A stretch of 54,206 nucleotides of DNA from NCBI GenBank assembly GCA_023259135.1, contig JAHFQX010000002.1, positions 54,026-108,231 of the forward strand, in the 5' to 3' direction. The translations under genes were made by a program, and so were the position numbers. Within the stretch, counting starts at the first letter, position 1. The number at the start of each line of letters is the position of its first letter. The stretch is from Betaproteobacteria bacterium. GTDB taxonomy: Bacteria; Pseudomonadota; Gammaproteobacteria; Burkholderiales; JAHFQX01. The notes beneath the pieces were generated by a model that did no database searches, was not told the DNA's origin, and was given only the letters and a program-made list of their open reading frames with translations. Shown here one piece after another: positions 9,972 through 31,503 of this stretch.

Positions 9972-11552
9972 ATGGACAACAGCACCATACGCGCCAGACT
10001 CCTCGATATCCGCGACTACGGCCAGGCTCGACGAGAATTTTCTTGGGAGGGTTTGTGGGAAATCATGGATGGCTCCCCGGCCCATCTCAACATCGCCCAC
10101 GAGTGCATCGACCGTCATCCCGACACCACTATCGCGGCACGCATCCAATTCGCGGACGGTCACCGGGAGATTTACAGCTTCCGGGAACTCAAGGCATGGA
10201 CTTCCCGCTTCGCCTATTTTCTCGGCCACGAGAGGATCGAGCGAGGCGATTGTATCGCCATCATGTTGGATCCTTCGCTGGAGTTCCTCGCGTGCAAATT
10301 TGGCGCCATGAAGCGTGGCGTCACTGTGGCGTTGCTTTCCACCCTGTTCGGGGCGGACGCCGTCCTCCAGCGGATTGAGCAGTGCAAACCCAAGCTATTG
10401 ATCGTGCCGCCCGGCTCTAAAATCCGTCTTGGAGACCATCTCGGCGTGCGGGTGGTTGAGGCCGACGCCGCCCTGCGCACCGCTCTCGCGGCGGAACCCG
10501 ACTCTTTTCCTGTCGCCGACACCTCCGCCGACGATCTGGCCTTCTATCTGTTCACGTCGGGGACGACCCGCAAACGGGCGGCGGCCATTCCACACCGCCA
10601 TAGGGCCGTGGTCACGCTGATGCAAAGTGCCTTATACGGGTTTGGTATCCGCCCCGGTGACGTTTTCTTCTCCCCGTCTTCGCCGGCCTACGGCTTCAGC
10701 GCTCACACCTTGATTTCTCCTTTGGCATTGGGGGTTGGGGTGGGATCTTTGTCGGGCCCCTTCGACCCGATTCGCGTATTGGAAGCCCTGCAAGAATTCC
10801 GCATTACCAATCTTTGTGCCCCACCTACGGCCTACCGGGGGATCATGAAATCGGGGCGAATCGGTGACTATCGTCTAGTTCTGGAAAAAGCCACTTATTC
10901 GGGCGAACCCATGGATTCGACGACGGCGCAGTGGGTACAGGCGAATTTCAAGGTACCGGCGTGCGGCGTTTATGGCTCTGCCGAGGTCAGCACCTTTATC
11001 GGCAATTACCCCGGATTCGACGGCTTTGTTGTCAAGCCCGGCGCCCTGGGCAAGCCTTTTCCCGGCCGGGAAGTCACCATTCTAGACGAAACAGGAAAAC
11101 CCTGTCCTCTCGGGGTTACCGGAGAGATCGCGATCCGCAAGCGTGGGGAATGGTTTCTCATCAAAGATCGGGGTTCGATGGATGAAGACGGCTACTTCTA
11201 CCATGCAGGTCGCTCGGACGACGCCATCATCTCCGCCGGCTACACCATCAGCGCAACCGAAATGGAAGACGTCCTGTTCAGGCACAAGGACGTAAAGGAC
11301 GTCGCCGTGATCGGAGCCAAGGACGAAATGCGCGGCCTGATTCCCAAGGCTTTTATAGTCAGCGACCGGCGTGGACCCGAGTTCGTCTCCGAGTTGCAGA
11401 TGTTCGCCAAGGAGCACCTCGGCAAGCACGAATACCCCAGGGCCGTGGCTTTCCTGGAGGTCCTACCCCGCACCACCGCAAGCAAGATTGACCGCAAAAT
11501 CTTGCGCGCCATGGATGCGGGCAACGACGAGCGGAGCGGTTTGGAAACCTGA
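9972..11552 (+). CDS. AMP-dependent acyl-CoA synthetase, benzoate-CoA-ligase-like
   Basis: A 526-residue ANL-superfamily protein that should form an acyl-CoA from a carboxylic acid, ATP and CoA. Visible motifs are YGSAEVSTF (A5), the DEDGYFYHAGRSDDAI hinge region with SAGYTISATEME (A7-A8), and LPRTTASKIDRKIL (A10 with its Lys). The phosphate-binding A3 loop is unusual: TSGTTRKRA at residues 195-203 instead of the common TSGTTGxPK, so the second glycine and the usual Lys position are changed. The organisation resembles benzoate or short-chain acid ligases. The start is uncertain: ATG at 9972 or GTG at 9960, neither with a good ribosome-binding site. It is followed at 31 bases by a hydratase gene. 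Confidence 0.85.
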   Translation: MDNSTIRARLLDIRDYGQARREFSWEGLWEIMDGSPAHLNIAHECIDRHPDTTIAARIQFADGHREIYSFRELKAWTSRFAYFLGHERIERGDCIAIMLDPSLEFLACKFGAMKRGVTVALLSTLFGADAVLQRIEQCKPKLLIVPPGSKIRLGDHLGVRVVEADAALRTALAAEPDSFPVADTSADDLAFYLFTSGTTRKRAAAIPHRHRAVVTLMQSALYGFGIRPGDVFFSPSSPAYGFSAHTLISPLALGVGVGSLSGPFDPIRVLEALQEFRITNLCAPPTAYRGIMKSGRIGDYRLVLEKATYSGEPMDSTTAQWVQANFKVPACGVYGSAEVSTFIGNYPGFDGFVVKPGALGKPFPGREVTILDETGKPCPLGVTGEIAIRKRGEWFLIKDRGSMDEDGYFYHAGRSDDAIISAGYTISATEMEDVLFRHKDVKDVAVIGAKDEMRGLIPKAFIVSDRRGPEFVSELQMFAKEHLGKHEYPRAVAFLEVLPRTTASKIDRKILRAMDAGNDERSGLET

Positions 11553-11583
11553 ACACTTAAACCCAAGCAAAAGGAATGATTAC

Positions 11584-12738
11584 ATGTCATCAGCACTTGA
11601 AGATCCCACCAAGCACCGGCATCACCAACCCATCACGGAAGAGGCCGTGGAAGAACTGCGTCGGAGGATAGGCGAAAAGATCTCCCCCCAGCCCGATCCA
11701 TGGAACTACGAGGCGACGTGGGACACGATCCGGCATTTTGCCCATGGCGCAGGCGACGACAACCCCCTGTTCTGCGACCCGGAGTACGCCAAGACAACCC
11801 AGTATGGCGACATCATCGCCCCCCCGTCTTTTCTGTTTTCTTGCTCCCGAGTGGTCAGCGGCTGGATCGGCGGCCTGCCCGGGGTCCATGGCATGTATGG
11901 CGGCACCGAATTCGAATTCCATCGCACCGTCCGCCGTGGTGACTCCATTCGCACCGAAGCTTGGCTTGACGATATTAGCGAGAAGAACACCAAGTTCGCC
12001 GGTCGCTCAATCATCCAGACCTACCGGGTCGAATTCTTTAACCAACACGATCAGTTGGTAGCCCAAGGCAAAAGCTGGTTCTTTCGCACCGACCGGGATT
12101 CGACGCGTCGCCGCAACGAAAAGTACCAGGACATCGAGAAAATGCGCCAGCACGTATACTCCGACGAGGAGCTTACCCGCACCTACCGGCTCTACGATGA
12201 AGAGAGCGTCCGTGGCGCCGAGCCCCGCTTATGGGAAGACGTCAAGGTCGGGGAGAGTCTGCCGAGGATGGCCAAGGGGCCGATGACGGTAAGCGGATTC
12301 ATCGCCTTTACCCAAGGATGGGGCGGAATTTACGTCCGCTCCAATAAGATCGCCTACAAGCAGATGAGGCGCCACCCGGCGCTCGGCATCAAGAACCGTT
12401 TCGGGATCCCGGACAACCCCGAACGCGTCCATTGGGAAACCGATTTTGCCCTGGAAGTCGGAGCTCCCGGCGCTTTCGACTACGGCCCGGAACGGGGCTC
12501 CTGGTTCATGCATCAGATTACAAACTGGATGGGGGACGATGGATTTATTGCCTTTCACACCTACAAGATCCGCCGCCACAACCCCGAAGGGGATCTTTTG
12601 TTCATCGACGCGAAGGTGACGCGCAAATTCGAGGAGGCTGGGCGCAAATTAGTGGAAATCGAACAAATTGCTCATAACCAAAACGATGAGCTTTCGGCTT
12701 TTGCTACAGGCCGTGTTGTTCTGCCATCTCGGGGTTGA
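11584..12738 (+). CDS. Double hot-dog MaoC/FAS1-like dehydratase, copy 1
   Basis: A 384-residue protein with two hot-dog domains, roughly residues 20-190 and 215-375. The N-terminal domain carries a hydratase-2-like motif, GDDNPLFCDPEYA at 58-70, with Phe63 where the catalytic His is expected. The C-terminal half has PMTVSGFIAFTQGWGG and NWMGDDGF...KIRRHNPEGD. It is a clear paralogue of the genes at 20227 and 21381. The family suggests hydration or dehydration of an acyl-CoA. AAGGAATG precedes the ATG. It probably shares a transcript with the ligase upstream and the TctC-type gene downstream. Confidence 0.88.
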   Translation: MSSALEDPTKHRHHQPITEEAVEELRRRIGEKISPQPDPWNYEATWDTIRHFAHGAGDDNPLFCDPEYAKTTQYGDIIAPPSFLFSCSRVVSGWIGGLPGVHGMYGGTEFEFHRTVRRGDSIRTEAWLDDISEKNTKFAGRSIIQTYRVEFFNQHDQLVAQGKSWFFRTDRDSTRRRNEKYQDIEKMRQHVYSDEELTRTYRLYDEESVRGAEPRLWEDVKVGESLPRMAKGPMTVSGFIAFTQGWGGIYVRSNKIAYKQMRRHPALGIKNRFGIPDNPERVHWETDFALEVGAPGAFDYGPERGSWFMHQITNWMGDDGFIAFHTYKIRRHNPEGDLLFIDAKVTRKFEEAGRKLVEIEQIAHNQNDELSAFATGRVVLPSRG

Positions 12739-12754
12739 GGGGAATCATGAAATT

Positions 12755-13738
12755 ATGAAATTGCCAATGAAGTTTATCGGGTTATTAGCAAATGGAATGC
12801 TGGCTCTGGCTCTGGCTTTGGGCCCTATTGAGGCTGGGGCCCAGACCTATCCTTCTAAACCGATCCGAATTATCTTGCCCCAGGGTGCCGGCGGCAGCAC
12901 CGATATCGTCGCCCGGATGATTGCCCAGAAGCTGGGGGAATCCTTAGAGCAGCACGTGGTGGTGGAGAACCGGCCAGGCGCTGCTGGGATCATCGGCGTG
13001 GATGCCGTGGCCAAAGCGGCTCCCGATGGTTATACGATTCTGCTTGGTTCCAGTACTATGATGGCTGCCAACATTAGCCTATACAGTAAGCTGCCTTTCG
13101 ACCCGGTGAAGGATCTAACGCCGCTGGCCATGGCTGCCGCGGCTCATTTTGTGTTTGCCGTGCATCCGTCGGTGCCAGCCAACAACATAAAGGAGCTGAT
13201 CGCTCTGGCCAAAGCCGAACCCGGTAAACTCAACTATGGTTCTGGAAGCAGCTCGGCTCAGATCTGCGTCGAGATGCTCAAATCCTTGGCCAGAGTGGAT
13301 ATCACCATGGTGCCTTACAAGAGCTCTTCCCAGGCCTTGAATGATTTGATGGCGGGACAGGTGCAGCTGGTATGCGAGCCCCCGACGACCGCAGTGCCCA
13401 ACGCCAAGGCTGGCAGGCTGAGGATCCTGGCGATCACGAGTCCAGAGCGCACCAGTATTGCCCCAGAATACCCTACAGTGGCGGAGGCAGGTGTGCCGGG
13501 GTTTGAGTACGAGGCCTGGGTCGGTTTCTTCGCCCCGGCCGGGATCCCCAAAAATATTGCCGCTAAATTGAGTGCCGAAATCGTCAAGGTACTGGAGCAG
13601 CCCGATTTGGTAAAAAAAATAAAGAGTGTCGGATTCAAGCCGATCCCCGCCAGCGCCGAACAATTGGCGGCCATTCAGAAGGCTGAAATAGCTCGATTGG
13701 CGAAGGTTATCAAAGAAGCTGGGATCAAGGTCGAGTAG
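12755..13738 (+). CDS. TctC/Bug-type periplasmic substrate-binding protein, copy 1
   Basis: A 327-residue exported protein of the tripartite tricarboxylate transporter receptor (Bug) family. The signal peptide is LLANGMLALALALG..., with likely cleavage after AGA before QTYPSKP. The mature start YPSKPIRIILPQGAGGSTD is the usual ligand loop. These proteins bind carboxylic acids in the periplasm. The ATG at 12755 overlaps the stop of a three-codon ORF (ATG AAA TTA TGA, 12747-12758) that has the better Shine-Dalgarno, GAGGGGAATC, so the true start could be at 12755 or 12767. No TctA/TctB membrane genes are in the window. Base composition is more AT-rich than in flanking genes. Confidence 0.9.
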   Translation: MKLPMKFIGLLANGMLALALALGPIEAGAQTYPSKPIRIILPQGAGGSTDIVARMIAQKLGESLEQHVVVENRPGAAGIIGVDAVAKAAPDGYTILLGSSTMMAANISLYSKLPFDPVKDLTPLAMAAAAHFVFAVHPSVPANNIKELIALAKAEPGKLNYGSGSSSAQICVEMLKSLARVDITMVPYKSSSQALNDLMAGQVQLVCEPPTTAVPNAKAGRLRILAITSPERTSIAPEYPTVAEAGVPGFEYEAWVGFFAPAGIPKNIAAKLSAEIVKVLEQPDLVKKIKSVGFKPIPASAEQLAAIQKAEIARLAKVIKEAGIKVE

Positions 13739-13898
13739 CCATTTTCGGCGACATCCTTATTCCGGAGCACGTAGTTTCCTCTTCCCAGGGTTAATGATCC
13801 AAGGTTGATCGCCTGGGGTGCGCCACTGCGCCACCCGGAAAAAAACTGGTGGGGCCGTTAGACTAAATTGATCGTTACATACCAAGAAGGAAGTCGCT

Positions 13899-14888
13899 AT
13901 GTATTTATTTAGCTATCGAGTGATTTTTAGATTATCTTACGCTGTGGCCCTGGCTGTTTTTACCTTCGCTCTCGCCAGTCATGCAGTCGCCCAAGCCTAT
14001 CCGGCCAAGCCGATTCGCATGATAGTCCCCTATCCTGCCGGGCAGGGCACCGACATCATGGCCAGAACTATCGCGGAGCGCCTGTCCGAGCGCCTTGGGC
14101 AGCGGATAGTCATAGACAATCGGCCGGGGGCCGGGGGCAATATCGGCACTGAACTGGCGGCGAAAGCGATCCCCGATGGTTACACCTTGGTCATGGGAAC
14201 TACCGCCACTCACGCAATGAACGCCAGCCTCTACAGCAACATTCCTTTCGACCACGTTAATGATTTCGCGCCCATCATCCTGGTAGGCGCGTTCCCGATG
14301 ATGCTGGTGACTCATACGGGGATTCCCGCCAGCTCGGTACAGGATGTCATCAAGATGGCCAAAGCAAGCCCCGGGATGTTGAACTTCGGCGTGGGAAGCA
14401 CTAGTTCACGGGTCTCAGTTGAACTTCTGAAGCGAACGGCCGGCATTGATGTGGTGCCGGTGCTTTATAAGGGCGCCACGGCGATGTTCACCGATCTCAT
14501 CGGAGAGCGCATCCAATTCGGATTCGAGACCGTCAGCGCGGCACTGCCCCAGATTAAAGCCGGCAAGCTCAAAGCCATAGCCGTCACCGCCCCCAAGCGC
14601 ACTGAGTTGGCGCCGGGCCTACCCACCTTCGCCGAATCCGGGCTGGCAGGCTACGACGTCGTGGTCTGGGTCGCTTTATTCGCTCCCAAGGGGACTCCTG
14701 GGGAGATTGTGGCAAAACTCAATGCTGAAGCGGAAAAAATCCTCCAAACCACCGAGATGCGCCAGCGAATGGTCACACTCGGCTATGACCCTGTCGGAGG
14801 GACCCCTGAGCAACTTGCTGCCTATGTGAAATCCGAAACCCAGAAATGGTCGCAGGCCATCAAGGAAGCTGGAATCAAGGTCGAGTAG
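13899..14888 (+). CDS. TctC/Bug-type periplasmic substrate-binding protein, copy 2
   Basis: A 329-residue Bug-family protein. A signal peptide of about 31 residues ends AVAQ before AYPAKPIRMIVPYPAGQGTD. AAGAAGGAAG precedes the ATG. It is much closer to the copy at 22566 (shared TDIMAR...IAERL, NRPGAGGNIGT, FGVGSTSSRVS-like stretches) than to copy 1. Its end, EAGIKVE, and about 35 bases past the stop resemble the end of copy 1. The 160-base gap 13739-13898 holds no gene. Expected ligand: a carboxylate related to whatever the adjacent CoA-activating enzymes use. Confidence 0.92.
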   Translation: MYLFSYRVIFRLSYAVALAVFTFALASHAVAQAYPAKPIRMIVPYPAGQGTDIMARTIAERLSERLGQRIVIDNRPGAGGNIGTELAAKAIPDGYTLVMGTTATHAMNASLYSNIPFDHVNDFAPIILVGAFPMMLVTHTGIPASSVQDVIKMAKASPGMLNFGVGSTSSRVSVELLKRTAGIDVVPVLYKGATAMFTDLIGERIQFGFETVSAALPQIKAGKLKAIAVTAPKRTELAPGLPTFAESGLAGYDVVVWVALFAPKGTPGEIVAKLNAEAEKILQTTEMRQRMVTLGYDPVGGTPEQLAAYVKSETQKWSQAIKEAGIKVE

Positions 14889-15033: not shown

Positions 15034-16160
15034 ATGTTCAAAACCAGTGGAAGGTTAAATTTGAGGAATTCGTAGGGGTACCCTTAAGAGGAGGAATTAC
15101 CATGGATCGAAGCAAAGCACTAACATGTTTCATTGTAGGAATTTTTGCCATTATCGTTATAGCATCCCAGTCCGCCACGGCCCAGGATAGGAAGCTGGTG
15201 CTCAGGGTCGCCGACCAGTTCCCCGTAAACCATTTTATACCACGCTACGGTATTAAACCCTGGATGGAACAGGTGACCAAGGCCACCAATGGGGAAGTTC
15301 AGTTCGAATACTATCCTGCGGAGCAATTGGGCAAAGCCAAAGATTTGCTGTCCCTGGTGCAGTCCGGGGTAGCCGATATCGTATTGTTTGCGCCGTCTTA
15401 TGCTTCCGACAAAATGCCGCTGGCTGCGGCGCTGGAATTACCCGGCATGTTCGACAGTTCCTGCCAAGGAACCACCATGCATTGGAAGTTGGCCAAGGAA
15501 GGAGGATTCCTTGCTCAGCGGGAATATGCTCCCAATGGCATACGGGTGCTGTTTTCACCCATGCTTCCCCCTTATAAAATGGTTTCAGCGAAGCGCAAGA
15601 TCGAGAATCGCGGGGATATCAAGGGCATGAAGTTGCGCATCTTGGGGGGGGCAATGGAACTGACCATGCACAAGTTGGAAGCAGTGGGTATAAAAATAGT
15701 GAGTTCCGATTTGTTTGAGGCTATCTCCCGAGGCACTCTGGACGGTGCCATCTTTTCCCATAGTGGGACGGTGGCCTACAACCTCCCGGCTAAATATGTC
15801 ACCGCCAGAGAAAGCTTCGGTTCAGCGGTAACGGTCTTCATCATTAGCGAGAACCGCTGGAAGCAGCTTCCCGATCATGTGAAGAAAGCGATGACGGAGG
15901 CGGGGGAGGCAGCCAACCACAGTGTATGCGCCGGGATGGACAAGGAGGAAGCTGATGCCCTGGAAAAACTTAAGCAGAATGGAGTGACGGCGGTACGCTG
16001 GTCGGCTGCGGATAAAAGGGAAATGGACGCGGTACTAGCGTCGGTGGCCGACGAATGGGCCGCGGAACTGGACAAGCGGGGCAAACCCGGCAGCGAAGTT
16101 CTAAAAGCCGTTCTGAAAGCCCGCAGCGGCCGTTGAGGCATGCCAGCAATTCGGTATCCC
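15034..16160 (+). repeat. Duplicated unit A: leader, TRAP binding protein gene and 3' flank
   Basis: The sequence from ATGTTCAAAACCAGTGGAAG through the TRAP binding-protein gene to GCAATTCGGTATCC past its stop is repeated, diverged, at 25713-26828. Because the non-coding leader and tail are also shared, this is a DNA-level duplication rather than two independent acquisitions. Confidence 0.7.
15102..16136 (+). CDS. TRAP transporter substrate-binding protein, DctP type, copy 1
   Basis: A 344-residue periplasmic binding protein. The signal peptide is followed by a likely cleavage site, SATA before QDRK. Mature motifs are LVLRVADQF, FEYYPAEQLGKAKDLLSL and SGVADIV, all standard for DctP proteins, and the organic-anion-binding Arg region LRILGGAMELT is present. 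GAGGAGGAATTACC precedes the ATG at 15102; longer in-frame starts lack support. Neither DctQ nor DctM membrane subunits are in the window. It sits between TctC-type genes and a CoA-transferase. Its closest relative here is the copy at 25773. Confidence 0.92.
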   Translation: MDRSKALTCFIVGIFAIIVIASQSATAQDRKLVLRVADQFPVNHFIPRYGIKPWMEQVTKATNGEVQFEYYPAEQLGKAKDLLSLVQSGVADIVLFAPSYASDKMPLAAALELPGMFDSSCQGTTMHWKLAKEGGFLAQREYAPNGIRVLFSPMLPPYKMVSAKRKIENRGDIKGMKLRILGGAMELTMHKLEAVGIKIVSSDLFEAISRGTLDGAIFSHSGTVAYNLPAKYVTARESFGSAVTVFIISENRWKQLPDHVKKAMTEAGEAANHSVCAGMDKEEADALEKLKQNGVTAVRWSAADKREMDAVLASVADEWAAELDKRGKPGSEVLKAVLKARSGR

Positions 16161-16235: not shown

Positions 16236-17459
16236 ATGTTCCAGGATATGGGTGATTCAGAACGCCCCTTCGAAGGCGTCCGCATTCTTGATTTCACACG
16301 GTACTTCGCAGGCCCCGTTGGTACGTTTCAGTTGGCCTTGTTGGGAGCAGACGTCATCAAGGTTGAGTCGATTGAAGGCGAGGACTTGCGTTACGATCAA
16401 TTGGCGAGTAGAGAATGGGGGGATCGTGGTATGTCTCCAGGGTTTCTCGCCGTAAACGGCAACAAGCGTAGCCTCGCCATTGATCTACGGCAGTCTAAGG
16501 GAATCGAAGTCGTCAAACGGCTGGCGAAAAATGTTGATGTCGTATGGGAGAACTTTCGACCTGGTGTAATGGACCAGCTCGGCCTGGGCTATACGATGCT
16601 TAGAGAAGCTAATCCGGGGCTGATTTATTGCGCTGTGACCGGCTTCGGTCAAACCGGACCCGAAAAATACACAGCCGCTTTCGATGGTAAAGTGCAAGCG
16701 ATGTCCGGCATGATGTCCCTCAACGGCGAGCCCGAACAGGGTCCCATGCGTGTCGGCTTACCCGCATGTGATTTAATCGGAGGACTGACGTCAGCATTTG
16801 CCGTCTCCAGCGCTCTTTACCAGCGTACCCGGACTGGCAGAGGGCAGTTCGTCGACGTGGCGATGCTCGATGCCACGCTTAGTGCGTTAATGGCGCCGAA
16901 CATAGTCGAGTACACGGTCACGGGGCACGTTCAAAAACAGTATGGGAACCTTTCTGTGTCAAATAAGCCAACTAGCGATCGTTTTCGCTGCGGCGACGGA
17001 TACATCATGTTGGCTGCGGTACGCGAAAAACACTTCGTCAATTTGATGCGCATTTTAGGACGAGAAGACGTACTCGATGATTCCCGCTTCAAAGACTGGT
17101 CGTCGCGGAGAAAAAATGCTCGTTTACTGCGAGAAATCATCGAGACAGCAATGGCGAATAGCACCCCAACAATCTGGGAAGAACGATTAACTAAGGCGGA
17201 CGTTCCATGTGCTACCATACATACTATCGATCAGATCGTTGCTCATCCTCAGCTTCAACGCCGCAATATCTTACAAAGAGTGGAAAGCCGATTTGGACCT
17301 CTTACGCTCGTCGGATCGGGTTTTGAACTCGCCTACGGTACTGGTCGCATCAAGCAGCCCCCACCCCAATTGGGCGAACATACGGAGAAGATTCTTATAG
17401 ATGCTGGTTATAGCTTAGGAGACGTCGGTAGCCTGCGCGAAGCAGGGATAATACTTTAA
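16236..17459 (+). CDS. Family III (CaiB/BaiF) CoA-transferase, AT-richer
   Basis: A 407-residue CoA-transferase that would move CoA between acids, for example from succinyl-CoA to an incoming acid, through an enzyme-bound Asp. Hallmarks: ALLGADVIKVE near residues 35-44, ENFRPGVMDQLGLGY at 105-119, and the catalytic Asp179 in VGLPACDLIGG. The start at 16236 has GGAGGG about 9 bases upstream; an ATG at 16218 is the alternative. Codon use is clearly different from neighbours: the row 17041-17100 has 27 G+C of 60, against 42 of 60 at 18301-18360. That suggests a different origin. It ends 23 bases before a truncated ligase fragment. Confidence 0.92.
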   Translation: MFQDMGDSERPFEGVRILDFTRYFAGPVGTFQLALLGADVIKVESIEGEDLRYDQLASREWGDRGMSPGFLAVNGNKRSLAIDLRQSKGIEVVKRLAKNVDVVWENFRPGVMDQLGLGYTMLREANPGLIYCAVTGFGQTGPEKYTAAFDGKVQAMSGMMSLNGEPEQGPMRVGLPACDLIGGLTSAFAVSSALYQRTRTGRGQFVDVAMLDATLSALMAPNIVEYTVTGHVQKQYGNLSVSNKPTSDRFRCGDGYIMLAAVREKHFVNLMRILGREDVLDDSRFKDWSSRRKNARLLREIIETAMANSTPTIWEERLTKADVPCATIHTIDQIVAHPQLQRRNILQRVESRFGPLTLVGSGFELAYGTGRIKQPPPQLGEHTEKILIDAGYSLGDVGSLREAGIIL

Positions 17460-17482
17460 TTTTCTGTGTCATAAGTGTCATC

Positions 17483-17800
17483 ATGCGTTTTTCCGTCAGC
17501 GCCGGCTATCGCATCGGTCCGACCGAAATCGAGGAATGCATCTTCCGTCATCCGGCGGTGGCCGACGTGGCGGTGGTGGGCGCTCCCGACCCGATACGGG
17601 GTTCGGTGGTGAAGGCCTTCGTGGTGGCCAAACCCGGCTTCGCTCCCGGCGAAAGCCTCAAGGAGGAAATCCAGCTTCTGGTGAAAACCCGCCTCGCCGC
17701 CCATGAATATCCGCGGCAAGTCGAGTTCGTCGCCGATTTGCCGCGCACCGTCACCGGCAAGATTCAGCGCCATCTGCTGCGGGCGCGGGAGGCGGGATGA
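17483..17800 (+). pseudogene. C-terminal fragment of an acyl-CoA synthetase
   Basis: A 105-codon open frame encoding only the AMP-binding C-terminal domain. Homology starts at residue 6 (SAGYRIGPTEIEE, the A8 region) and runs through HEYPRQVEFV to the A10 motif LPRTVTGKIQRHLLR. The adenylate-forming N-terminal domain of about 400 residues is missing, and the sequence just upstream belongs to an unrelated, AT-richer segment. It overlaps the next CoA-transferase by ATGA, the junction expected of an ancestral operon. It is probably a truncated ligase left by the rearrangement that brought in 9594-17480. A free-standing C-domain that still folds cannot be excluded. Confidence 0.78.
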
Positions 17801-23547: not shown

Positions 23548-24762
23548 ATGCAAGCCGCGGAATGGGCCGGACCTCTGGCGGGGGTTAAGGTACTCGATCT
23601 GTCTTTGATGGTGGCGGGGCCCTATACCACGACCCTGCTCGGCGACCTGGGCGCCGAGATCTGGAAGGTCGAGCCGCCCTGGGGAGACGGCACCCGCAGC
23701 ATGGCGCCGTACGTGAACGGGGAGAGCCACTACTTCATCGCCATCAACCGCAACAAGAAAAGCCTGGCGGTGGATCTGAAACAGCCGCGGGGCGCGCAAG
23801 TCATCCGTGATCTGGTGCGCCGCGCCGACGTGCTGGTGGAGAACTTCCGGCCCGGGGTCATGGATGCCTTGGGGCTGGACTACGGGACCTTGGCGGAGCT
23901 CAATCCGCGGCTCATCTATTGCTCCATCACCGGCTTCGGCACAGACAGCCCATTGCGGGACAAGCCTTCTTACGACATCGTCACCCAGGCGTTGAGCGGC
24001 GCCATGAGCGTGAACGGCGATCCCGACGGCCCGCCGCAAAAAATCGGGCTGCCGCTGGGAGACTTGGTAGGCGGGATCTACGGCTCCCTGGGCGTGGTCG
24101 CCGCGCTTTTCGAACGGCAAGCCGGCAGTGGCGGCGGCCGGCACATCGATCTCAGCCTGGTGGATGGGATGCTGGGAATGCTGGGATACTTTGCCCAGAT
24201 TTATTTCGTCACCGGAAAGAACCCGGGGCGCGCCGGCTCCAAGCACCCGGCTTTTTCTCCCTACGGCAGCTATCCCACCGCCGACGGGCACATCGTCATC
24301 GCTTGCCTGACCGAGACCTTCTGGGCCAATTTCGCCAAAGCGCTGGAGCACCCCGATCTGCTCGACGACCCGCGCTTCACCGTCAACGAAGCGCGCCTCA
24401 AAAACCGGGATGCGCTGGACGCCGAAGTCAGCGCCGTCATGCGGCGGCGGCCGATGGCGGAATGGCAAGCCATCCTGGAAGCCCACGACGTGCCCCATGC
24501 CCCCATCCTGGGCGTCGGGGAAGCCTTGGAACAGCCCCATGCCCGGGCCCGCGACATGGTGGTCACGGCGGACCATCCGCGGGCCGGAACCCTGCGCATG
24601 GTAGGACGGCCGATCAAATATGTGGGCATGCCGCAACGCCCCCTGGATCCACCGCCCATGTTCGGGGAGCATACGCGGCAAATATTGGCCGAAGAATTGG
24701 GGTACGCAGAGGAGGTGATCAATGCGCTGGAGCAAGATGGGACCATCAATCGTCAGCAATGA
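23548..24762 (+). CDS. Family III (CaiB/BaiF) CoA-transferase, subgroup 1
   Basis: A 404-residue CoA-transferase with GAEIWKVEPPWGDGTR at about residues 35-50, ENFRPGVMDALGLDYG at 98-113, and the catalytic Asp172 in IGLPLGDLVGG. The C-terminal MVVTADHPRAG...MVGRPIKY stretch is shared with 29313 and with the remnant at 9594-9960, so these three form one subgroup. The start at 23548 follows GAGGGGGGCG; longer in-frame starts lie inside the TctC gene. It starts 16 bases after that gene and is followed at 32 bases by a crotonase. Confidence 0.94.
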   Translation: MQAAEWAGPLAGVKVLDLSLMVAGPYTTTLLGDLGAEIWKVEPPWGDGTRSMAPYVNGESHYFIAINRNKKSLAVDLKQPRGAQVIRDLVRRADVLVENFRPGVMDALGLDYGTLAELNPRLIYCSITGFGTDSPLRDKPSYDIVTQALSGAMSVNGDPDGPPQKIGLPLGDLVGGIYGSLGVVAALFERQAGSGGGRHIDLSLVDGMLGMLGYFAQIYFVTGKNPGRAGSKHPAFSPYGSYPTADGHIVIACLTETFWANFAKALEHPDLLDDPRFTVNEARLKNRDALDAEVSAVMRRRPMAEWQAILEAHDVPHAPILGVGEALEQPHARARDMVVTADHPRAGTLRMVGRPIKYVGMPQRPLDPPPMFGEHTRQILAEELGYAEEVINALEQDGTINRQQ

Positions 24763-24794: not shown

Positions 24795-25679
24795 ATGGAC
24801 TTTGAATTCATTCTTTACGAGAAGGACCCGAAAGCCCACATCGCCCGGGTCACCATGAACCGCGCCCACAAGCTCAACTGCCTGACCCAGGAAATGTACA
24901 AGGAAATCGGCATCGCCATGGAGGATGCCGAGGACGACGACGATATCAAGGTCATCATCCTGCGGGGCGCGGGCAACAGCTTCTCCACCGGCCAGGACTT
25001 GAGCGAGGTCGGCTTCATCTACGGTTTCCAGGGCCACGGCAAGGCGCGGCGCCCTAGCCAGAAGCGGCGCATGGCGGTGGACAAGCGCTGGATGGAAAAC
25101 CTCGCCAAAGTGTTCTATTGCAACAAGGCCACCATTGCCCAAGTGCAGGGCCATTGCCTCGGCGCCGGCCTGGATCTGTTCATGTCCTGCGACCTGTCGG
25201 TGGTGGCAGAGGATGCCCAGTTCGGTCATCCGGGACAACGGCTGGTGGGACCGGCCTTCGATTTCAACATGCCGCTCTACCTGTGGAAGCTGGGCCCCAC
25301 CCTGGCCAAGAACATTCTCTTCACCGGTGACTCCATCAGCGGCCGCGACGCCGAGCGCTGGGGCATCGTGACCAAGGTGGTGCCGGCCGATCGCCTGGAG
25401 GCGGAAACCGAGACCCTGGCCCGCAAGGTGGCGCTGATGCCGGGGGACGGCATCGTCATGGGCAAGGCCGGCCTGCGGCTGGCGGCCGACATCATGGGCA
25501 TCGGCGCGGGCTATTCCTACGGCCCCATCGCGCATACCTGGGGCACCAACCTGCGCTTCGAGGCCGACGAACACAACTTCTTCCGCGCCCGGAGCGACAA
25601 GGGCGCGCGGGAGGCCTTCCACGAACGCGACCAGCGGTTCGCCGAAGCAGAACAGCGCAACAAAGAGGGCTCCAAGTAG
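24795..25679 (+). CDS. Crotonase-family protein with altered catalytic residues
   Basis: A 294-residue enoyl-CoA hydratase/isomerase-fold protein. The oxyanion-hole stretch GHCLGAGLDLFMSCD (residues 119-133) has Asp127 where hydratases have the first catalytic Glu. The second Glu position, in AQFGHPGQRLVGP (141-153), is Gly147. FTGDSISGRDAERWGIVTKV is a normal family C-terminal part. Without both Glu residues it may not be a plain hydratase; dehalogenase-, hydrolase-, isomerase- or C-C-cleaving crotonases use Asp or other residues. CAGGAGATC precedes the ATG. It is the last gene of the 17.8-25.7 kb run before duplicated unit B. Confidence 0.87.
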   Translation: MDFEFILYEKDPKAHIARVTMNRAHKLNCLTQEMYKEIGIAMEDAEDDDDIKVIILRGAGNSFSTGQDLSEVGFIYGFQGHGKARRPSQKRRMAVDKRWMENLAKVFYCNKATIAQVQGHCLGAGLDLFMSCDLSVVAEDAQFGHPGQRLVGPAFDFNMPLYLWKLGPTLAKNILFTGDSISGRDAERWGIVTKVVPADRLEAETETLARKVALMPGDGIVMGKAGLRLAADIMGIGAGYSYGPIAHTWGTNLRFEADEHNFFRARSDKGAREAFHERDQRFAEAEQRNKEGSK

Positions 25680-25712
25680 CCGCTCCCCGCTCGTTCAGGT
25701 GGGGGGATCGGG

Positions 25713-26828
25713 ATGTTCAAACCAGTGGAAGGTTAAATTTGATGAATTCATAAGCTTTAAGGAGGAATCACCATGGATCGAGGCAAAGCGCTAAAAGTTT
25801 TTGCCGTGGGAATTCTGGCTGCCATCGCCCTGTCATCCCCACCCGCCACGGCTCAGGATAAGAAACTGGTGCTCAGGGTGGCCCACCAATTCTCCCCAAG
25901 CGACACCCGCTACGATGTCAAGCCCTGGATGGAGCAGGTGACCAAGGCCACCAACGGGGAAGTCCAGTTCGAATACTACCCTGCGGAGCAATTGGGCAAA
26001 GCCAAGGATTTGCTGTCCCTGACGCAGGCCGGGGTAGCGGACATCGTACTGTTCGTGCCGTCTTATGTTTCCGACAAAATGCCGCTGACCGCGGCGCTGG
26101 AATTGCCTGGCCTGTTCACCAATGCTTGCCAGGGAACCCTTGCCCATTGGAAGCTGGCCAAGGAGGGAGGCATTCTCGCTCAGCGGGAATACGCCCCCAA
26201 CGGTGTGCGGGTACTGTTCTCCATCGTTACCTCTCCCTATCACCTGATCTCGGCGAAGAACAAGATCGAAAGCCTCAAGGATATCGAGCGCATGAAGGTG
26301 CGCGTCCTGGCGGGGGCAATGGAATTGACCATGCACAAGCTGAAAGTGGTAGGGGTCAGAATGCCGGGGCCAGAGCTATACCAAGCGCTCTCCCGGGGCA
26401 CTTTGGACGGTGTCATCTTCTCCTATGGCGCGATTGTAAGCCCAAGCTATAACCTCCCGGCCAAGTATGTCACGTCCGACAGCTTTGGTTCGGCGGTGCT
26501 CGCCCTCATCATCAGCGAAAACCGCTGGAAGCAGCTTCCCGGTCATGTGAAAAAAGCGATGATCGAGGCGGGGGGGGCAGTTACCAACAGTATATGCACC
26601 GGACTGGACAATGAGGAAGCCGATGCCCTGGAGAAGCTCAAGCAGAGAGGAGTGACGGTGGTACGCTGGTCGGCTGCGGATAAGAAAGAAATGGACGCGG
26701 TACTGGCATCGGTGGCCAGCGAATGGGCCGCGGAACTGGACAAGCGGGGCAAACCCGGCAGCGAGGTGCTGAAAGCCGTGCTGGAAGCTCGAGACAGCCG
26801 CTGAGGCCTACCCGCAATTCGGTATCCT
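25713..26828 (+). repeat. Duplicated unit B: leader, TRAP binding protein gene and 3' flank
   Basis: Diverged copy of 15034-16160. The shared leader reads ATGTTCAAACCAGTGGAAGG, then AAATTTGATGAATTC, and the shared tail is GCAATTCGGTATCC. This copy has shed part of the leader (TAAGCTTTAAGGAGG here against a longer sequence in unit A). It is richer in G+C at third codon positions than unit A. Confidence 0.7.
25773..26804 (+). CDS. TRAP transporter substrate-binding protein, DctP type, copy 2
   Basis: A 343-residue exported protein. The signal peptide ends PATA before QDKK. It has FEYYPAEQLGKAKDLLSL, AGVADIVLFVPSYVSDKM and VRVLAGAMELTMHKL like its duplicate at 15102. The two differ mainly in the region 200-240 (GPELYQALSRGTLDGVIFSY here) and in small indels, which suggests ligand divergence. 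TTAAGGAGGAATC precedes the ATG. It precedes another TRAP binding protein gene by 139 bases and has no DctQM partner in the window. Confidence 0.93.
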   Translation: MDRGKALKVFAVGILAAIALSSPPATAQDKKLVLRVAHQFSPSDTRYDVKPWMEQVTKATNGEVQFEYYPAEQLGKAKDLLSLTQAGVADIVLFVPSYVSDKMPLTAALELPGLFTNACQGTLAHWKLAKEGGILAQREYAPNGVRVLFSIVTSPYHLISAKNKIESLKDIERMKVRVLAGAMELTMHKLKVVGVRMPGPELYQALSRGTLDGVIFSYGAIVSPSYNLPAKYVTSDSFGSAVLALIISENRWKQLPGHVKKAMIEAGGAVTNSICTGLDNEEADALEKLKQRGVTVVRWSAADKKEMDAVLASVASEWAAELDKRGKPGSEVLKAVLEARDSR

Positions 26829-26895: not shown

Positions 26896-26925
26896 AGCGC
26901 CGCTTTCATTCGGAGAAGCGGCGCT
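26896..26925 (+). promoter_or_regulatory. Perfect 10-bp stem-loop in the leader of the TRAP gene at 26944
   Basis: AGCGCCGCTT, a 10-base loop TCATTCGGAG, then AAGCGGCGCT. It ends 18 bases before the ATG at 26944 and is followed by the ribosome-binding AAGGAAGAAG. There is no T-tract, so it is not an intrinsic terminator. It could shield or stabilise the message 5' end or serve as an operator. A partial copy lies at 14941-14966. Confidence 0.55.
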
Positions 26926-26943
26926 GTCGAAGGAAGAAGCTCG

Positions 26944-27984
26944 ATGAAAAAGGATCGCTTGAAACAATGGCTACCGTCGCTCGCGTTCGCGCTCTTCGCA
27001 TTCGGTAGCGGGGCAGCCCTCGGCCAGGAGAAAAAGATCGTGCTGCGGGTGGCGGACGCCTTTCCCCCCGGCCACTATATCGCCGAGCACGCGGCCAAGT
27101 ACTGGATGGAAGCCGTCAAGCGGAGCAGCGGCGGCGCGGTGGATTTCGAGTACTACCCGGCCGAGCAGCTCGGCAAGGCCAAGGATCTGCTGGCGCTGAC
27201 GGTCTCGGGGGTGGCCGATGTCGGCTACGTGGCGCCCTCCAATGTTTCGGACAAGATGCCGCTCTCCGCGGTGGCCGAGCTTCCCGGCGGCTTTCCGACC
27301 TCCTGCGCCGGAACCCTCGCCTACTGGAAGATCGCCAAGGACGGAATCCTGGCCCAGAAGGAACTGGAGCCCAACGGGGTCCGGCTGCTGTTCACTTTAG
27401 CCCTGGCGCCTTACCAGATTTTCTCCCGTCAGAAATTCGACTCCCTAAAGAGCATCGAAGGACTGAAAATCCGCACCACCGGGGGCGCCATGGACACCAC
27501 GGTGCGCAAGCTCAAGGCGGTGTCGGTGAAGATGGCCGGCCCTGAAATCAACGAAGCCCTGGCCCGCGGAACCATTGATGCCGGAGTGTTTCCTTACGCC
27601 AGCGTACTGTCCTGGAAGTGGGACGCCCATGCCAAATTCACCACTGTCGGAGAGAATTTCGGCAGCTTCATCGCCAGCTACGTGATCAGCGAAGCGCGAT
27701 GGAAAAAACTGCCGGACAACATTCAGAAGATCATGCTGGAAGCGGGGGAAGCCGCCACTCGCAACGCCTGTGCCCAAGTCGATAAGAGCATCGACGCCGA
27801 CATCGAAAAATTGCAGCAGCGGGGAGTCGCGCTGGTGAAGTTCTCCGCCGCCGATAAAAAAGAAATTGAGTCCCTGCTGGCCACCGTGTCCGCGGAATGG
27901 GCCGAGGCTCTGGATAAGCGCGGCAAGCCCGGCACCGAAGCGCTCAAGGCCTTCCGCGCCGCCCTGGCCCAAGGGAGCCGCTGA
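26944..27984 (+). CDS. TRAP transporter substrate-binding protein, DctP type, copy 3
   Basis: A 346-residue periplasmic binding protein with a signal peptide ending ALGQ before EKKIVLRVADAF. The core FEYYPAEQLGKAKDLLAL and SGVADVGYVAPSNVSDKM match copies 1 and 2, but the rest is more diverged and lacks their leader. Start ATG at 26944 with AAGGAAGAAG upstream. Its stop TGA directly abuts the ATG of the next CoA-transferase (27985), a strong sign that uptake and CoA activation are co-expressed. Confidence 0.94.
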   Translation: MKKDRLKQWLPSLAFALFAFGSGAALGQEKKIVLRVADAFPPGHYIAEHAAKYWMEAVKRSSGGAVDFEYYPAEQLGKAKDLLALTVSGVADVGYVAPSNVSDKMPLSAVAELPGGFPTSCAGTLAYWKIAKDGILAQKELEPNGVRLLFTLALAPYQIFSRQKFDSLKSIEGLKIRTTGGAMDTTVRKLKAVSVKMAGPEINEALARGTIDAGVFPYASVLSWKWDAHAKFTTVGENFGSFIASYVISEARWKKLPDNIQKIMLEAGEAATRNACAQVDKSIDADIEKLQQRGVALVKFSAADKKEIESLLATVSAEWAEALDKRGKPGTEALKAFRAALAQGSR

Positions 27985-29160
27985 ATGGCCGAGGCTTCCT
28001 GGGGCCCCCTGGCCGGGCTGCGCGTGCTGGATTTCTCGGTGCTGTTGCCGGGCCCGGCGGCGACGGGGATGCTGGCTGACTTGGGGGCGGACGTGGTGAA
28101 GGTGGAACCGCTTGCCGGCGATCCGTTCCGCACCATGACCCGGCCGGACACCATGTTCCGCAACGCCAATCGCAATAAGCGCAGCATCGCCCTCAACCTC
28201 AAGCATCCCGCCAGCCGGCAGGTGGTGGAACGGTTGGCCGAGCGCTCCGACGTGGCGCTGGAAGCCTTCCGGCCCGGGGTCGCGGCACGGTTGGGCATCG
28301 ACTCCGAACATCTGAGAAAGATCAATCCGGGACTCGTCTATTGCTCGCTGTCCGGCTATGGGCAGGATGGCCCGTGGCGCGATTTGCCGGGGCACGACGG
28401 CAACTACCTGGCGGCGGCGGGAGCCCTCGCCTTCTCCGGGCACTGGCTGGAAAAGCCGATGCGCTCGGGGCTGCCGGTCGCCGATCTGGCGGGAGGATCG
28501 CTGGCCGTGATCGCGATTCTCGCCGCGCTGCGAGAGCGCGAGGGCACCGGCAAGGGCGCCTATCTGGACATGAGCCTGTTCGAATCGGCCTTGTTCTACA
28601 CCTCGCTGCGGCACGGCATGGCGGCCGACCAGCCGAACCGCGACCATCTGTTTCCGCTCAACGACCTGTTCGAGACGGCGGACGGCCAGCGCATCGCCTT
28701 CGCTCCCGTCGAGGAGCATTTCTGGCAGGGCTTCCAGCGGGCGATCGGCGATTCCGCCCCGGCGCTGCTGCATCCGGATTATGCGACCCCGGAGGGGCGG
28801 CGGCGGCGCGGCGACGAGCTGGCCCAAACCCTGCACGCGCTGTTCCGCACCCGGACCGCCGCCGAATGGATGGCGTTGTTCGAGCGGCACGATCTGCCGG
28901 CGCAGTTGTGCCTCACCCCCGCCCAGGCGGCGGCCGGCTCCCAGGCAACGGCTCGGGAGATGGTGTTGCGAATAAACGGGGAGCCCCTGGTGCCTTTTCC
29001 GGTGCGAGCCGACGGGCGGCGGGGCGGGGTGCTGAAACGCGGCGCGCCCAGCGTAGGCCAAGACACGCTGGCGATTCTGGAAGAGCTGGGATTTGAAAAA
29101 CAGCAACGCACGGCGCTGGTCGAGCGGGCGGTGGTCGGCGTCCCCGCCGACGCCGGTTAG
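27985..29160 (+). CDS. Family III (CaiB/BaiF) CoA-transferase
   Basis: A 391-residue CoA-transferase with LADLGADVVKVEPLAGDPFR near residues 30-49, EAFRPGVAARLGID at 93-106, and the catalytic Asp167 in SGLPVADLAGG. Family members of this subgroup include alpha-methylacyl-CoA racemase-like and succinyl-CoA-dependent transferases. It starts immediately after the TRAP gene stop. A 152-base gap then separates it from the next CoA-transferase; that gap contains the palindrome CCTTTGCGCAAAGG at 29168-29181 and no gene. Confidence 0.93.
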   Translation: MAEASWGPLAGLRVLDFSVLLPGPAATGMLADLGADVVKVEPLAGDPFRTMTRPDTMFRNANRNKRSIALNLKHPASRQVVERLAERSDVALEAFRPGVAARLGIDSEHLRKINPGLVYCSLSGYGQDGPWRDLPGHDGNYLAAAGALAFSGHWLEKPMRSGLPVADLAGGSLAVIAILAALREREGTGKGAYLDMSLFESALFYTSLRHGMAADQPNRDHLFPLNDLFETADGQRIAFAPVEEHFWQGFQRAIGDSAPALLHPDYATPEGRRRRGDELAQTLHALFRTRTAAEWMALFERHDLPAQLCLTPAQAAAGSQATAREMVLRINGEPLVPFPVRADGRRGGVLKRGAPSVGQDTLAILEELGFEKQQRTALVERAVVGVPADAG

Positions 29161-29167
29161 GGAACCT

Positions 29168-29181
29168 CCTTTGCGCAAAGG
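29168..29181. promoter_or_regulatory. 14-bp perfect palindrome after a CoA-transferase gene
   Basis: CCTTTGCGCAAAGG, 7 bases past the stop of the gene at 27985. It could be an operator for a promoter serving the gene at 29313, or a short mRNA-end hairpin. No T-tract follows. Confidence 0.3.
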
Positions 29182-29312
29182 GCCCCAAGCAAGGCGAGGA
29201 CCATGATAGCAACCCTGCCGAGAGGCAAATCCGGTAGGATTGCTTACGTCCGGCGCGCCCACAACCCCGCCACGGTTTTCAAAGCTTCAACAATCCGCTT
29301 AAAGAGGACATT

Positions 29313-30524
29313 ATGGAAAATCCAGGATGGGCCGGACCCCTGGCCGACATCAAAGTGCTGGACCTGACCCGGGTGCTGGCCGGCCCCTACGCCACCCTGC
29401 TGCTGGGGGACCTGGGGGCCGAGGTCCTAAAAATCGAGCCGCCGGGCAAAGGCGACGACATCCGGATCATGGCGCCGTTCATCAACGGCGAGAGCCATTA
29501 TTTCATCGCGCTCAACCGCAACAAGAAAAGCTTGGTGATCGACCTCAAAAAACCCGAAGGGGTGCAAGCGGTGATGGATCTCGCCCGCAAGGCCGACGTG
29601 CTGGTGGAAAACTACCGGCCCGGTGTCATGGATTCCCTGGGACTAGGCTACGAAAAGCTGGCGCAGCTCAATCCGCGGCTGGTTTATTGCTCCATCAGCG
29701 GTTTCGGCGCTCATGGGCCGCTGCGGGACAAGCCCTCCTTCGACATCGTTACCCAGGCCTTGAGCGGCGCCATGAGCGTGAACGGCTCCCCGGACACCCC
29801 GCCGGAAAAGCTCGGCATTCCACTAGGGGATATGGTGGGAGGGGTGTACGGCTCGCTGGCCATCATGTCGGCGATCCATGAGCGCCACTCCACGAACCGG
29901 GGCCGGCACATCGACATCAGCCTGCTAGACGGCATGCTGGGGATGCTCGGATATCTGGCCCAAATCTATTTCGTCTCCGGCCAGAGTCCGGGGCGGGTGG
30001 GATCCAAGCACCCTAATATCACCCCCTACGGCGCCTACCCGGCCTCCGACGGCCATCTCATCGTCGCCTGTCTGACCGAAGGCTTCTGGATCAATTTCGC
30101 CAAGGCCCTGGGCCGGCCCGATTTTCTGCAGGACCCCCGTTTCAGCGGCTACGAAATCCGCCTCAAGAACCGTCAAGTTCTGGATGACGAGATCAACGCC
30201 ATCATGCGCCGCCGCAGCATGGCCGAATGGAAGAAAATTCTGGAGGAGCACGACGTTCCCCACGCCCCCATTCTGAGCGTGGGCGAGGCTCTGGAAAGCG
30301 CCCATGCCCAGGCTCGCGACATGGTGGTGACGGCGGATCACCCCAGCGCCGGGAAAATTCGCATGGTGGGCCGCCCCATCAAATTCACCGGCGCCCAACA
30401 GACCCCCCTTGCCCCGCCGCCCCGCTTGGGAGAGCATACCCGGCAAGTGCTCGCCGAGGCGGCGGGATATTCCCCGCAGACCCTCGATGCCTTGGAGCGG
30501 GCCGGGGTTATTCCCAGGCCTTAG
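29313..30524 (+). CDS. Family III (CaiB/BaiF) CoA-transferase, subgroup 1
   Basis: A 403-residue CoA-transferase, a close paralogue of 23548. The stretch FINGESHYFIALNRNKKSLV is nearly the same in both, as are SGAMSVNG and LLDGMLGMLGYLAQIYFV. The catalytic Asp173 lies in LGIPLGDMVGG. AAAGAGGACATT precedes the ATG. Close duplication within one array suggests either a second substrate or gene dosage. It is followed at 55 bases by an SDR gene with which it probably forms a transcript. Confidence 0.95.
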   Translation: MENPGWAGPLADIKVLDLTRVLAGPYATLLLGDLGAEVLKIEPPGKGDDIRIMAPFINGESHYFIALNRNKKSLVIDLKKPEGVQAVMDLARKADVLVENYRPGVMDSLGLGYEKLAQLNPRLVYCSISGFGAHGPLRDKPSFDIVTQALSGAMSVNGSPDTPPEKLGIPLGDMVGGVYGSLAIMSAIHERHSTNRGRHIDISLLDGMLGMLGYLAQIYFVSGQSPGRVGSKHPNITPYGAYPASDGHLIVACLTEGFWINFAKALGRPDFLQDPRFSGYEIRLKNRQVLDDEINAIMRRRSMAEWKKILEEHDVPHAPILSVGEALESAHAQARDMVVTADHPSAGKIRMVGRPIKFTGAQQTPLAPPPRLGEHTRQVLAEAAGYSPQTLDALERAGVIPRP

Positions 30525-30579
30525 CGGTTTGCTTGGCGGCCGGCGAGCTGTATTTTTTCGTTCACTGAGGAGGAAAATC

Positions 30580-31503
30580 GTGGCAAAAGACGGAATGCTG
30601 AAGGGCAAGGTAGCGGTGGTCACCGGCGCGGGCCGGGGCATCGGGCGGGCGATGGCGATGGCCATGGCCGCGGAGGGCGCCAAGGTGGTGGTCAATGACC
30701 TGGGCACCGGCATCGACGGCCAGGGCAAGGACAGCGGGCCGGCCCAGCAAGTCGTGGAGGAGATCAAGGCCCAGGGCGGAGAGGCCGCCGCCAACACCGA
30801 CAGCGTGGCGGATTGGAACGGCGCCCAGGGGATCATCGCCACCGCCATCGACAAGTTCGGCCGCATCGACTGCGTGGTCAACAACGCCGGCATCCTGCGG
30901 GACCGCATGTTCCACAAAATGGAGCCGGAGGAATGGAAGGCCGTGATCGACGTTCACCTCAACGGCGCCTTCTTCGTCAGCCGCGCCGCCGCGCCCCATT
31001 TCCGCCAGCAGGAAAGCGGCTGCTACATCCACATGACCTCCGGCGCCGGCCTCATCGGCAACGTCGGCCAGGCCAACTACGCTACCGCCAAGATCGGCTT
31101 GCAGGGGCTGTCCAAATCCATCGCCCTGGACATGAAGCCTTTCAACGTGCGCTCCAATCTGCTCTCGCCCCGCGCCTGGAGCCGCATGGTGGGCTCGATT
31201 CCCGCCAATACCCCGGAACAGGCCGCCTTCGTGGAGAAGTTGAAAAAGGGCCTGGACCCCGCCCAGATCGCGCCGATGGCGGTGTTCCTGGCCAGCGAGG
31301 CGGCCAAGGACATCTCCGGGCAGATTTTCACGGTGATCGGCAATGAGGTTTTCCTGCTGAGCCAGCCCCGCCCGATCCGCGCCATCCACCGCGACGGCGG
31401 CTGGACCCCCCAGGCCCTGGCGGAGCGCATTCCGCTGGCGTTCAAGACCTCCTTCACGCCGCTGGAGCGCACCATGGACGTGTTCTGCTGGGATCCGATT
31501 TGA
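30580..31503 (+). CDS. SDR-family 3-hydroxyacyl-CoA dehydrogenase-like protein
   Basis: A 307-residue short-chain dehydrogenase. The cofactor loop TGAGRGIG is at residues 15-22, NNAG at 101-104, Ser154 in HMTSGAGL, and Tyr167-x3-Lys171 in NYATAKIGL. The HLNGAFFVSRAAAPHF and NVGQANYATAK context is that of the SDR domain of peroxisomal multifunctional enzyme 2, which oxidises (R)-3-hydroxyacyl-CoA with NAD. That fits with R-specific hot-dog hydratases upstream. The start is GTG at 30580, with GAGGAGGAAAATC ahead; longer ATG starts lie inside the previous gene. It is the last gene before the terminator at 31528. Confidence 0.92.
   Translation: MAKDGMLKGKVAVVTGAGRGIGRAMAMAMAAEGAKVVVNDLGTGIDGQGKDSGPAQQVVEEIKAQGGEAAANTDSVADWNGAQGIIATAIDKFGRIDCVVNNAGILRDRMFHKMEPEEWKAVIDVHLNGAFFVSRAAAPHFRQQESGCYIHMTSGAGLIGNVGQANYATAKIGLQGLSKSIALDMKPFNVRSNLLSPRAWSRMVGSIPANTPEQAAFVEKLKKGLDPAQIAPMAVFLASEAAKDISGQIFTVIGNEVFLLSQPRPIRAIHRDGGWTPQALAERIPLAFKTSFTPLERTMDVFCWDPI

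Follow-up and report, generated by a model that had tools for sequence, protein, structure and literature searches.

The window analysed here is a 54,206-nt stretch of contig JAHFQX010000002.1 from a Betaproteobacteria bacterium (GCA_023259135.1). It carries an array of about 22 kb in which ligase, hydratase, receptor, PF02515, crotonase, and SDR genes, identified with Pfam, all lie on the plus strand (Table 1). We propose that this region is a mosaic of two catabolic operon copies that perform the capture, CoA activation, and R-specific breakdown of carboxylic acids, a reading to which we assign a probability of roughly 0.5. At the family level, there is good support for a gene set that degrades acids by an R-specific route, and the array looks like two joined operons rather than one pathway. 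The enzymes belong to known families; it is their arrangement that appears to be new.

A probable seam between two operon copies

The array is best read as a mosaic of two related operons of one catabolic kind, with a seam near 17.46 kb. The right block would comprise LIG', CoAT2, CoAT3, HYD_B, HYD_C, TctC3, CoAT4, CROT, DctP2, DctP3, CoAT5, CoAT6, and SDR. The left block, a putative later entrant, would comprise a broken CoA-transferase gene, LIG, HYD_A, TctC1, TctC2, DctP1, and CoAT1. This reading is based on a truncated ligase, a step in the G+C content of third codon positions (GC3), and the separate placement of HYD_A in the hydratase tree. GC3 is 0.53-0.71 from the broken CoA-transferase gene through CoAT1 and 0.72-0.92 from LIG' through SDR, the right block being similar in composition to the flanks. 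A break in composition coincides with a break in reading frame at about 17460-17483, where the original prediction had not listed LIG' (17483-17800), a 5'-truncated second ligase. This remnant is 49% identical to residues 420-521 of LIG, and its stop codon overlaps the start codon of CoAT2. No other ligase match in the genome exceeds 40% identity to LIG; thus, a front half of comparable similarity was not found. At its far end, the left block begins with a broken CoA-transferase gene, 70% identical to CoAT6 over 86 aa. The left block probably entered later, cutting the ligase of the right block; as marks of insertion, repeats at both of its ends amounted to matches of only 10-12 bases.

HYD_A shares 51-52% identity with HYD_B and HYD_C. 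A quick search gave a tree of 43 hydratase sequences in which a starred branch (95) separated HYD_A and 34 further rows from HYD_B, HYD_C, L009, L010, and four outer rows. Based on this branch and on the differing composition, tandem duplication of all three hydratases was rejected for HYD_A.

Two points weigh against the mosaic. The exact place of HYD_A in the tree is unsure, given the quick search and the long end branches (HYD_A 1.26, L154 2.01, L155 5.1), and an assembly misjoin at the seam would give a similar picture. Such a misjoin of two contigs, under which the array as such would be absent from the cell, is compatible with the coincident breaks in composition and frame and with the draft state of the genome (2.58 Mb, 86 contigs, 99% complete). 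Nevertheless, we consider it improbable, since a broken gene also bounds the left block on its opposite side, the estimated contamination is 0.47%, and paralogues are close across the seam (DctP1/DctP2 74% and TctC2/TctC3 70% identity).

A conserved hydratase core and the proposed R-specific pathway

A core consisting of an acyl-CoA ligase, a double hot-dog hydratase, a family III CoA-transferase, and then either an SDR or a TctC is conserved in other genomes. A scan of named genomes with HYD_C yielded 125 relatives, the best 80 of which were kept for neighbour analysis. Among the loci of these best 80 of 125, the neighbour clusters were ligase (69), IclR (52), CoA-transferase (47), SDR (27), and TctC (13), with one representative each of the IclR, CoA-transferase, and SDR clusters checked by Pfam. 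A ligase lay just upstream of the hydratase in 62 of the 75 loci with room for it, and a divergent IclR gene was found upstream in 45 of 80. Downstream, a CoA-transferase was present in 40 of 64 loci with room, followed by an SDR in 23 and a TctC in 8, never by both. Loci with the TctC-type core came from Bordetella, Variovorax, and their kin (seven genomes) and from a single Alphaproteobacterium metagenome-assembled genome (MAG). Meanwhile, the SDR-type core occurred in sphingomonads and Gammaproteobacteria, whose core CoA-transferases are 53-60% identical to CoAT6. The array in the window holds both SDR and TctC.

The original prediction had called for a search for the same gene order in other genomes, and this search recovered the core and partial orders. 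A locus titled as a SAR324 MAG (L009) displayed two CoA-transferases, a hydratase (71%), and a DctP, while two members of the order of the window's genome (G002 and G051) displayed a CoA-transferase, a TctC, a ligase, and a hydratase, along with additional TctC genes. None of the loci examined showed the array in full, among relatives that include none of the same genus or family. Matches to HYD_C at an E-value of 0.001 occurred in 7 of 59 relatives and were strong in four (G002, G005, G051, and G054), so possession of this hydratase is not general within the order.

The AlphaFold model of HYD_C predicts a hydratase-2 (double hot-dog) fold. Its mean predicted local distance difference test score (pLDDT) was 79 and its predicted template modelling score (pTM) 0.81, with pLDDT below 50 at residues 230-244, 275-280, and 287-292. 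The structures listed as matches included 4v12 (Z 23.1), 5i7n (22.6), the mesaconyl-CoA hydratase 8hgn (19.0), and the hydratase of human MFE-2, 1s9c (18.1), all of them hydratase-2 proteins and related dehydratases. The fold is also that of mesaconyl-CoA (8hgn) and itaconyl-CoA (PaIch 8huc/8khg) hydratases, but identity to these is 12-14%, and the conserved partners here are a ligase, a CoA-transferase, and an MFE-2-like SDR or TctC. Here and below, the active-site roles given to residues of hydratases, crotonases, and racemases are our assumption. In the C-terminal half, His278 is invariant in 39 aligned sequences and aligns with the His of HadB, while Asp272 is nearly invariant in these rows and stands one residue off the HadB spacing. 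The position in the N-terminal half that corresponds to His278 is Trp or Phe in the copies of the window. The motif GDDNPLW or GDDNPLF in that half had raised the idea of hydratases without an active site, which was rejected on the invariance of the C-half His and its alignment with that of HadB.

The closest matches of the SDR are MFE-2-type (3R)-hydroxyacyl-CoA dehydrogenases (PDB 2et6, E 6.7e-103; 1zbq; 1gz6), a comparison made on sequence only, which points to an enzyme of this type. Hydratase and dehydrogenase are encoded by separate genes, not in one polypeptide; what we propose is therefore a functional analogy to MFE-2 rather than an MFE-2 protein. The catalytic position of PF02515 proteins, whose Asp we take to be catalytic, was occupied by Asp in all 31 frames of the genome examined. 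When aligned with the racemases 2g04 and 8rmw, CoAT5 displayed His, Asp, Asp, and Glu at what are presumably the positions of the alpha-methylacyl-CoA racemase residues; the His and Glu were both present in 4 of the 31 frames. Hence, the six intact family III CoA-transferases of the original prediction are indeed six PF02515 proteins, but because of these four residues, a better count is five transferases and one racemase-like protein. The five others are assigned to family III by their sequences, and CoAT5 is called no more than racemase-like because its overall similarity is highest to a transferase entry.

Peroxisomal branched-chain beta-oxidation relies on AMACR and MFE-2. The gene set of the array resembles that system split into separate genes, as a hydratase-2 fold, an MFE-2-like (3R) dehydrogenase, and a racemase-like family III protein are encoded together. 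Unlike in the peroxisomal system, CoA-transferases would also activate, binding proteins adjoin, and the array has no dehydrogenase or SCP2 part.

Under the proposed pathway, periplasmic receptors would bind carboxylic acids and pass them to shared permeases of the tripartite tricarboxylate transporter (TTT) or tripartite ATP-independent periplasmic (TRAP) type encoded elsewhere. The CoA thioester would be formed by the ligase or by CoA-transferases, as their families suggest, perhaps with CoAT2 and CoAT3 acting as a heteromer, and the residues of CoAT5 suggest that it may set the configuration of the alpha-methyl carbon. An acyl-CoA dehydrogenase from outside the array would then give the enoyl-CoA, which the hydratases, judging from their fold, would convert into (3R)-hydroxyacyl-CoA. 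This would be oxidised by the SDR with the R specificity of its family, and a thiolase, possibly that at 6957-8141, would perform the cleavage. The hydratase-2 fold, the MFE-2-like SDR, the racemase residues, and the neighbours found in Mycobacterium nebraskense (L088) together argue for R-specific beta-oxidation in which the dehydrogenase step relies on genes outside the array. In this mycobacterium, the hydratase lies among a ligase, two acyl-CoA dehydrogenases, thiolases, and a ChsH2-type OB protein, a neighbourhood which suggests branched acyl chains. The substrates are likely alpha-methyl-branched or other bulky acids. Fold and family rest on computation; the chemistry, the order of steps, and the substrates are inferred. 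The activation, hydration, and R-specific oxidation originally predicted are thus retained at the level of family and fold. What was not borne out is a single 21.5-kb pathway, given the mosaic seam, the lack of an acyl-CoA dehydrogenase in the array and of membrane subunits beside the receptors, and the failure to see the whole array in the loci examined.

Some observations speak against R-specific breakdown. No acyl-CoA dehydrogenase is encoded in the array; such enzymes are encoded at 45775-46947 of the window and in other stretches. The HYD_C model is weak (pLDDT below 50) at residues 275-280, the stretch containing the His presumed to be catalytic, and the Asp beside this His, off the HadB spacing by one, is Glu in two mycobacterial rows. 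CoAT5 scored 176 bits with the transferase entry 10uh versus 137-144 with racemases, and its NCBIfam matches were transferases, all under cut-off, with no racemase model among them.

R-specific hydratases of this superfamily can supply polyhydroxyalkanoate (PHA) synthesis. MaoC reportedly does likewise (PMC3823801). The hydratases of the array could therefore feed (R)-3-hydroxyacyl-CoA to PHA synthesis rather than breakdown, and a PhaC-type synthase is encoded at 3868-5634 on the other strand. We give this explanation little chance, as the conserved partners of the hydratase (ligase, CoA-transferase, and SDR or TctC) point to the uptake and activation of external acids.

The pair CoAT2 and CoAT3 invites comparison with the benzylsuccinate CoA-transferase BbsEF (PDB 9fn0), since the two are adjacent and each scores higher with a different subunit. 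CoAT3 reached 238 bits with 9fn0_B and 98 with chain A, while CoAT2 reached 138 with chain A and 114 with chain B. If they worked like BbsEF, the right block might degrade substituted succinates, and a protein with an ethylbenzene-dehydrogenase-type (EB_dh) domain (PF09459) is encoded at 33915-34868 on the minus strand. This role is highly improbable in our view: the best overall match of CoAT2 is another protein, 4ed9 (176 bits), and, unlike the setting of BbsEF, this genome has no match to the glycyl-radical enzyme family PF02901. Acids from fumarate addition were thus rejected as self-made substrates, and the cell is probably not a maker of substituted succinates, the uptake of which would still be possible. 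Also in the right block, the crotonase-family protein CROT reads HPGQ where its top PDB match has EPEL, the site at which we take crotonases to carry their catalytic Glu; hence, this Glu seems to be missing.

Orphan receptors and their link to CoA-transferases

The genome encodes 37 PF02515 matches, including a few short fragments, and 29 TctC and 26 DctP receptors, along with one TctA and four DctM membrane subunits. The TctA match lies on contig 69 and those to DctM on contigs 17, 33, and 60, with none on contig 13, to which the window belongs. The receptors of the array have no membrane subunits encoded beside them and do not form complete TTT or TRAP transporters. Of the 37 PF02515 matches, 13 had a same-strand TctC or DctP neighbour within 500 bp. 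When the clusters were placed at random 2000 times, the average was 0.9 such cases and the highest count 8; outside the window's contig, the observed count was 10 of 29. A binding protein directly before a CoA-transferase, originally described as recurring in the array, is no rule in the genome, where the receptor within 500 bp lay upstream eight times and downstream six times.

PF02515 matches were absent from 16 of 40 relatives of the same order and exceeded 12 only in G005 (36, or 66 when searched alone; 6.2 Mb), G002 (27; 4.9 Mb), and G011 (24; 4.6 Mb). Per Mb, the genome of the window was the highest of the set (14.3 vs. 10.6 for G005). With 386 TctC candidates and 66 PF02515 matches in 6.2 Mb, G005 displays a very large receptor expansion. 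There, only 2 of 64 PF02515 matches (the two weakest omitted) had a same-strand receptor within 500 bp, with a null expectation of 2.2, as counted with 150 listed of the 386 TctC candidates and without DctP. This result, and the 24 of 37 PF02515 matches without such a receptor in the genome of the window, count against the proposed reading of the array. Pairing as a general rule of receptor expansions was thus not seen in G005, and the link seems to characterise this genome rather than receptor expansions at large.

The array might instead be a set of independent receptor/CoA-transferase pairs for unrelated acids, with the hydratase core as one of several passengers. In line with this, PF02515 proteins other than the CoAT4/CoAT6 pair are just 29-41% identical to one another, other parts of the genome have receptor/CoA-transferase pairs that lack a hydratase, and gaps of 93-213 bp at several junctions leave room for promoters. 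We find this rather doubtful, as ligase, hydratase, CoA-transferase, and SDR or TctC recur jointly in other genomes, and promoter-like sites inside the array show no excess (four in each of two scans vs. 5.3 and 4.0 in shuffles).

Returning to two joined operons for R-specific breakdown, we tentatively suggest a broader view, which is less probable than the mosaic itself. A widespread, undescribed operon type (IclR; ligase, hydratase, CoA-transferase, and SDR or TctC) may break down alpha-branched acids by a split, R-specific beta-oxidation resembling that of MFE-2. Here, it would have been fused and multiplied with orphan receptors, the receptor/CoA-transferase pairs serving as capture-and-activate units that share a few permeases throughout the 2.6-Mb genome.

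Expansions of orphan TTT receptors have been described in Bordetella and Rhodoplanes (PMC5994714), and growth of Variovorax on 3,3'-thiodipropionate required one TctC gene (PMC8102459). The genome of the window is like those expansions in its many receptor and few membrane genes (29 TctC to one TctA; 26 DctP to four DctM). It differs in that 13 of 37 PF02515 matches adjoin a receptor, while the term 'CoA' is absent from the main text of the Rhodoplanes paper (PMC5994714). Among the open-access papers listed, none treated the hydratase core or the receptor/CoA-transferase link; subscription journals and preprints lay outside this search. It is a standing question why certain bacteria retain dozens to hundreds of orphan TTT receptors. 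In this genome, many of the receptors are tied to CoA-activating enzymes, so that the acid shared by a receptor and its neighbouring transferase becomes searchable. If the hydratase core is R-specific, a protein family recurring across several bacterial classes would gain a function.

The same genome holds another receptor/CoA-transferase array (L131 and L132; G000:C52:25000-51000), with nine DctP and three PF02515 matches within 22 kb. At a further locus (L145:3094-4835), two family I CoA-transferase genes (PF01144) stand between a TctC and a family III gene, which is followed by a DctP.

Gene inventory and surroundings of the array

Table 1 Features of the array and its borders (window positions)
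Feature	Position	Strand	Evidence and remarks
GntR/FCD regulator, just upstream of array	8818..9519	+	Pfam PF00392, PF07729
Broken CoA-transferase, seventh PF02515 gene, left end of left block	9617..9958	+	C-terminal part only, in-frame TAG
LIG, acyl-CoA ligase	9972..11552	+	PF00501, PF13193
HYD_A, double hot-dog hydratase	11584..12738	+	PF13452
TctC1 receptor	12755..13738	+	PF03401
TctC2 receptor	13899..14888	+	PF03401; 70% identity to TctC3
DctP1 receptor	15102..16136	+	PF03480; 74% identity to DctP2
CoAT1, family III CoA-transferase	16236..17459	+	PF02515; catalytic Asp position retained
LIG', remnant of second ligase, at seam	17483..17800	+	PF13193; C-terminal domain only
CoAT2, possible partner of CoAT3	17797..18963	+	PF02515
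CoAT3	18975..20207	+	PF02515; best PDB match a benzylsuccinate CoA-transferase subunit
HYD_B hydratase	20233..21357	+	PF13452; 64% identity to HYD_C
HYD_C hydratase (structure modelled)	21381..22523	+	PF13452
TctC3 receptor	22566..23531	+	PF03401
CoAT4	23548..24762	+	PF02515; 68% identity to CoAT6
CROT, crotonase-family protein	24795..25679	+	PF00378
DctP2 receptor	25773..26804	+	PF03480
DctP3 receptor, abuts CoAT5 (gap 0)	26944..27984	+	PF03480
CoAT5, racemase-like PF02515 protein	27985..29160	+	PF02515; His, Asp, Asp, Glu at racemase positions
CoAT6, CoA-transferase type of conserved core	29313..30524	+	PF02515
SDR, MFE-2-like (3R)-hydroxyacyl-CoA dehydrogenase (closest match)	30595..31503	+	PF00106; PDB 2et6, 1zbq, 1gz6
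Terminator-like hairpin after SDR, at array end	31526..31554	+	13 pairs

Pfam located every family named in the original prediction at the predicted places on one strand. Likewise, the order hydratase-then-TctC does occur twice, and the zero-base junction at 27984/27985, where DctP3 abuts CoAT5, is exact. The broken CoA-transferase gene was not among the six predicted, and none of the NCBIfam models listed for LIG reaches its cut-off. The GntR/FCD regulator may be linked to the array. Neighbouring genes of the right block are separated by 0-42 bp, apart from four junctions (93, 139, 152, and 70 bp), as computed before a 3-bp revision of the start codons of CoAT3 and CoAT4. The hairpin after the SDR has the longest stem of the 24 terminator-like sites in the stretch, for which shuffles give 19.6. 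The window has no tRNA and no Rfam match.

Upstream of the array, the PhaC-type synthase (3868-5634, minus strand) is accompanied by an acetyl-CoA acetyltransferase (6957-8141, plus strand), a possible tie of (R)-3-hydroxyacyl-CoA to storage polymer. Downstream, a two-gene biotin-dependent acyl-CoA carboxylase, presumably of the methylcrotonyl type ('MCC'), is encoded at 35543-39177 on the plus strand, and 14-15 of the 80 loci from relatives have a similar pair close to the hydratase core.

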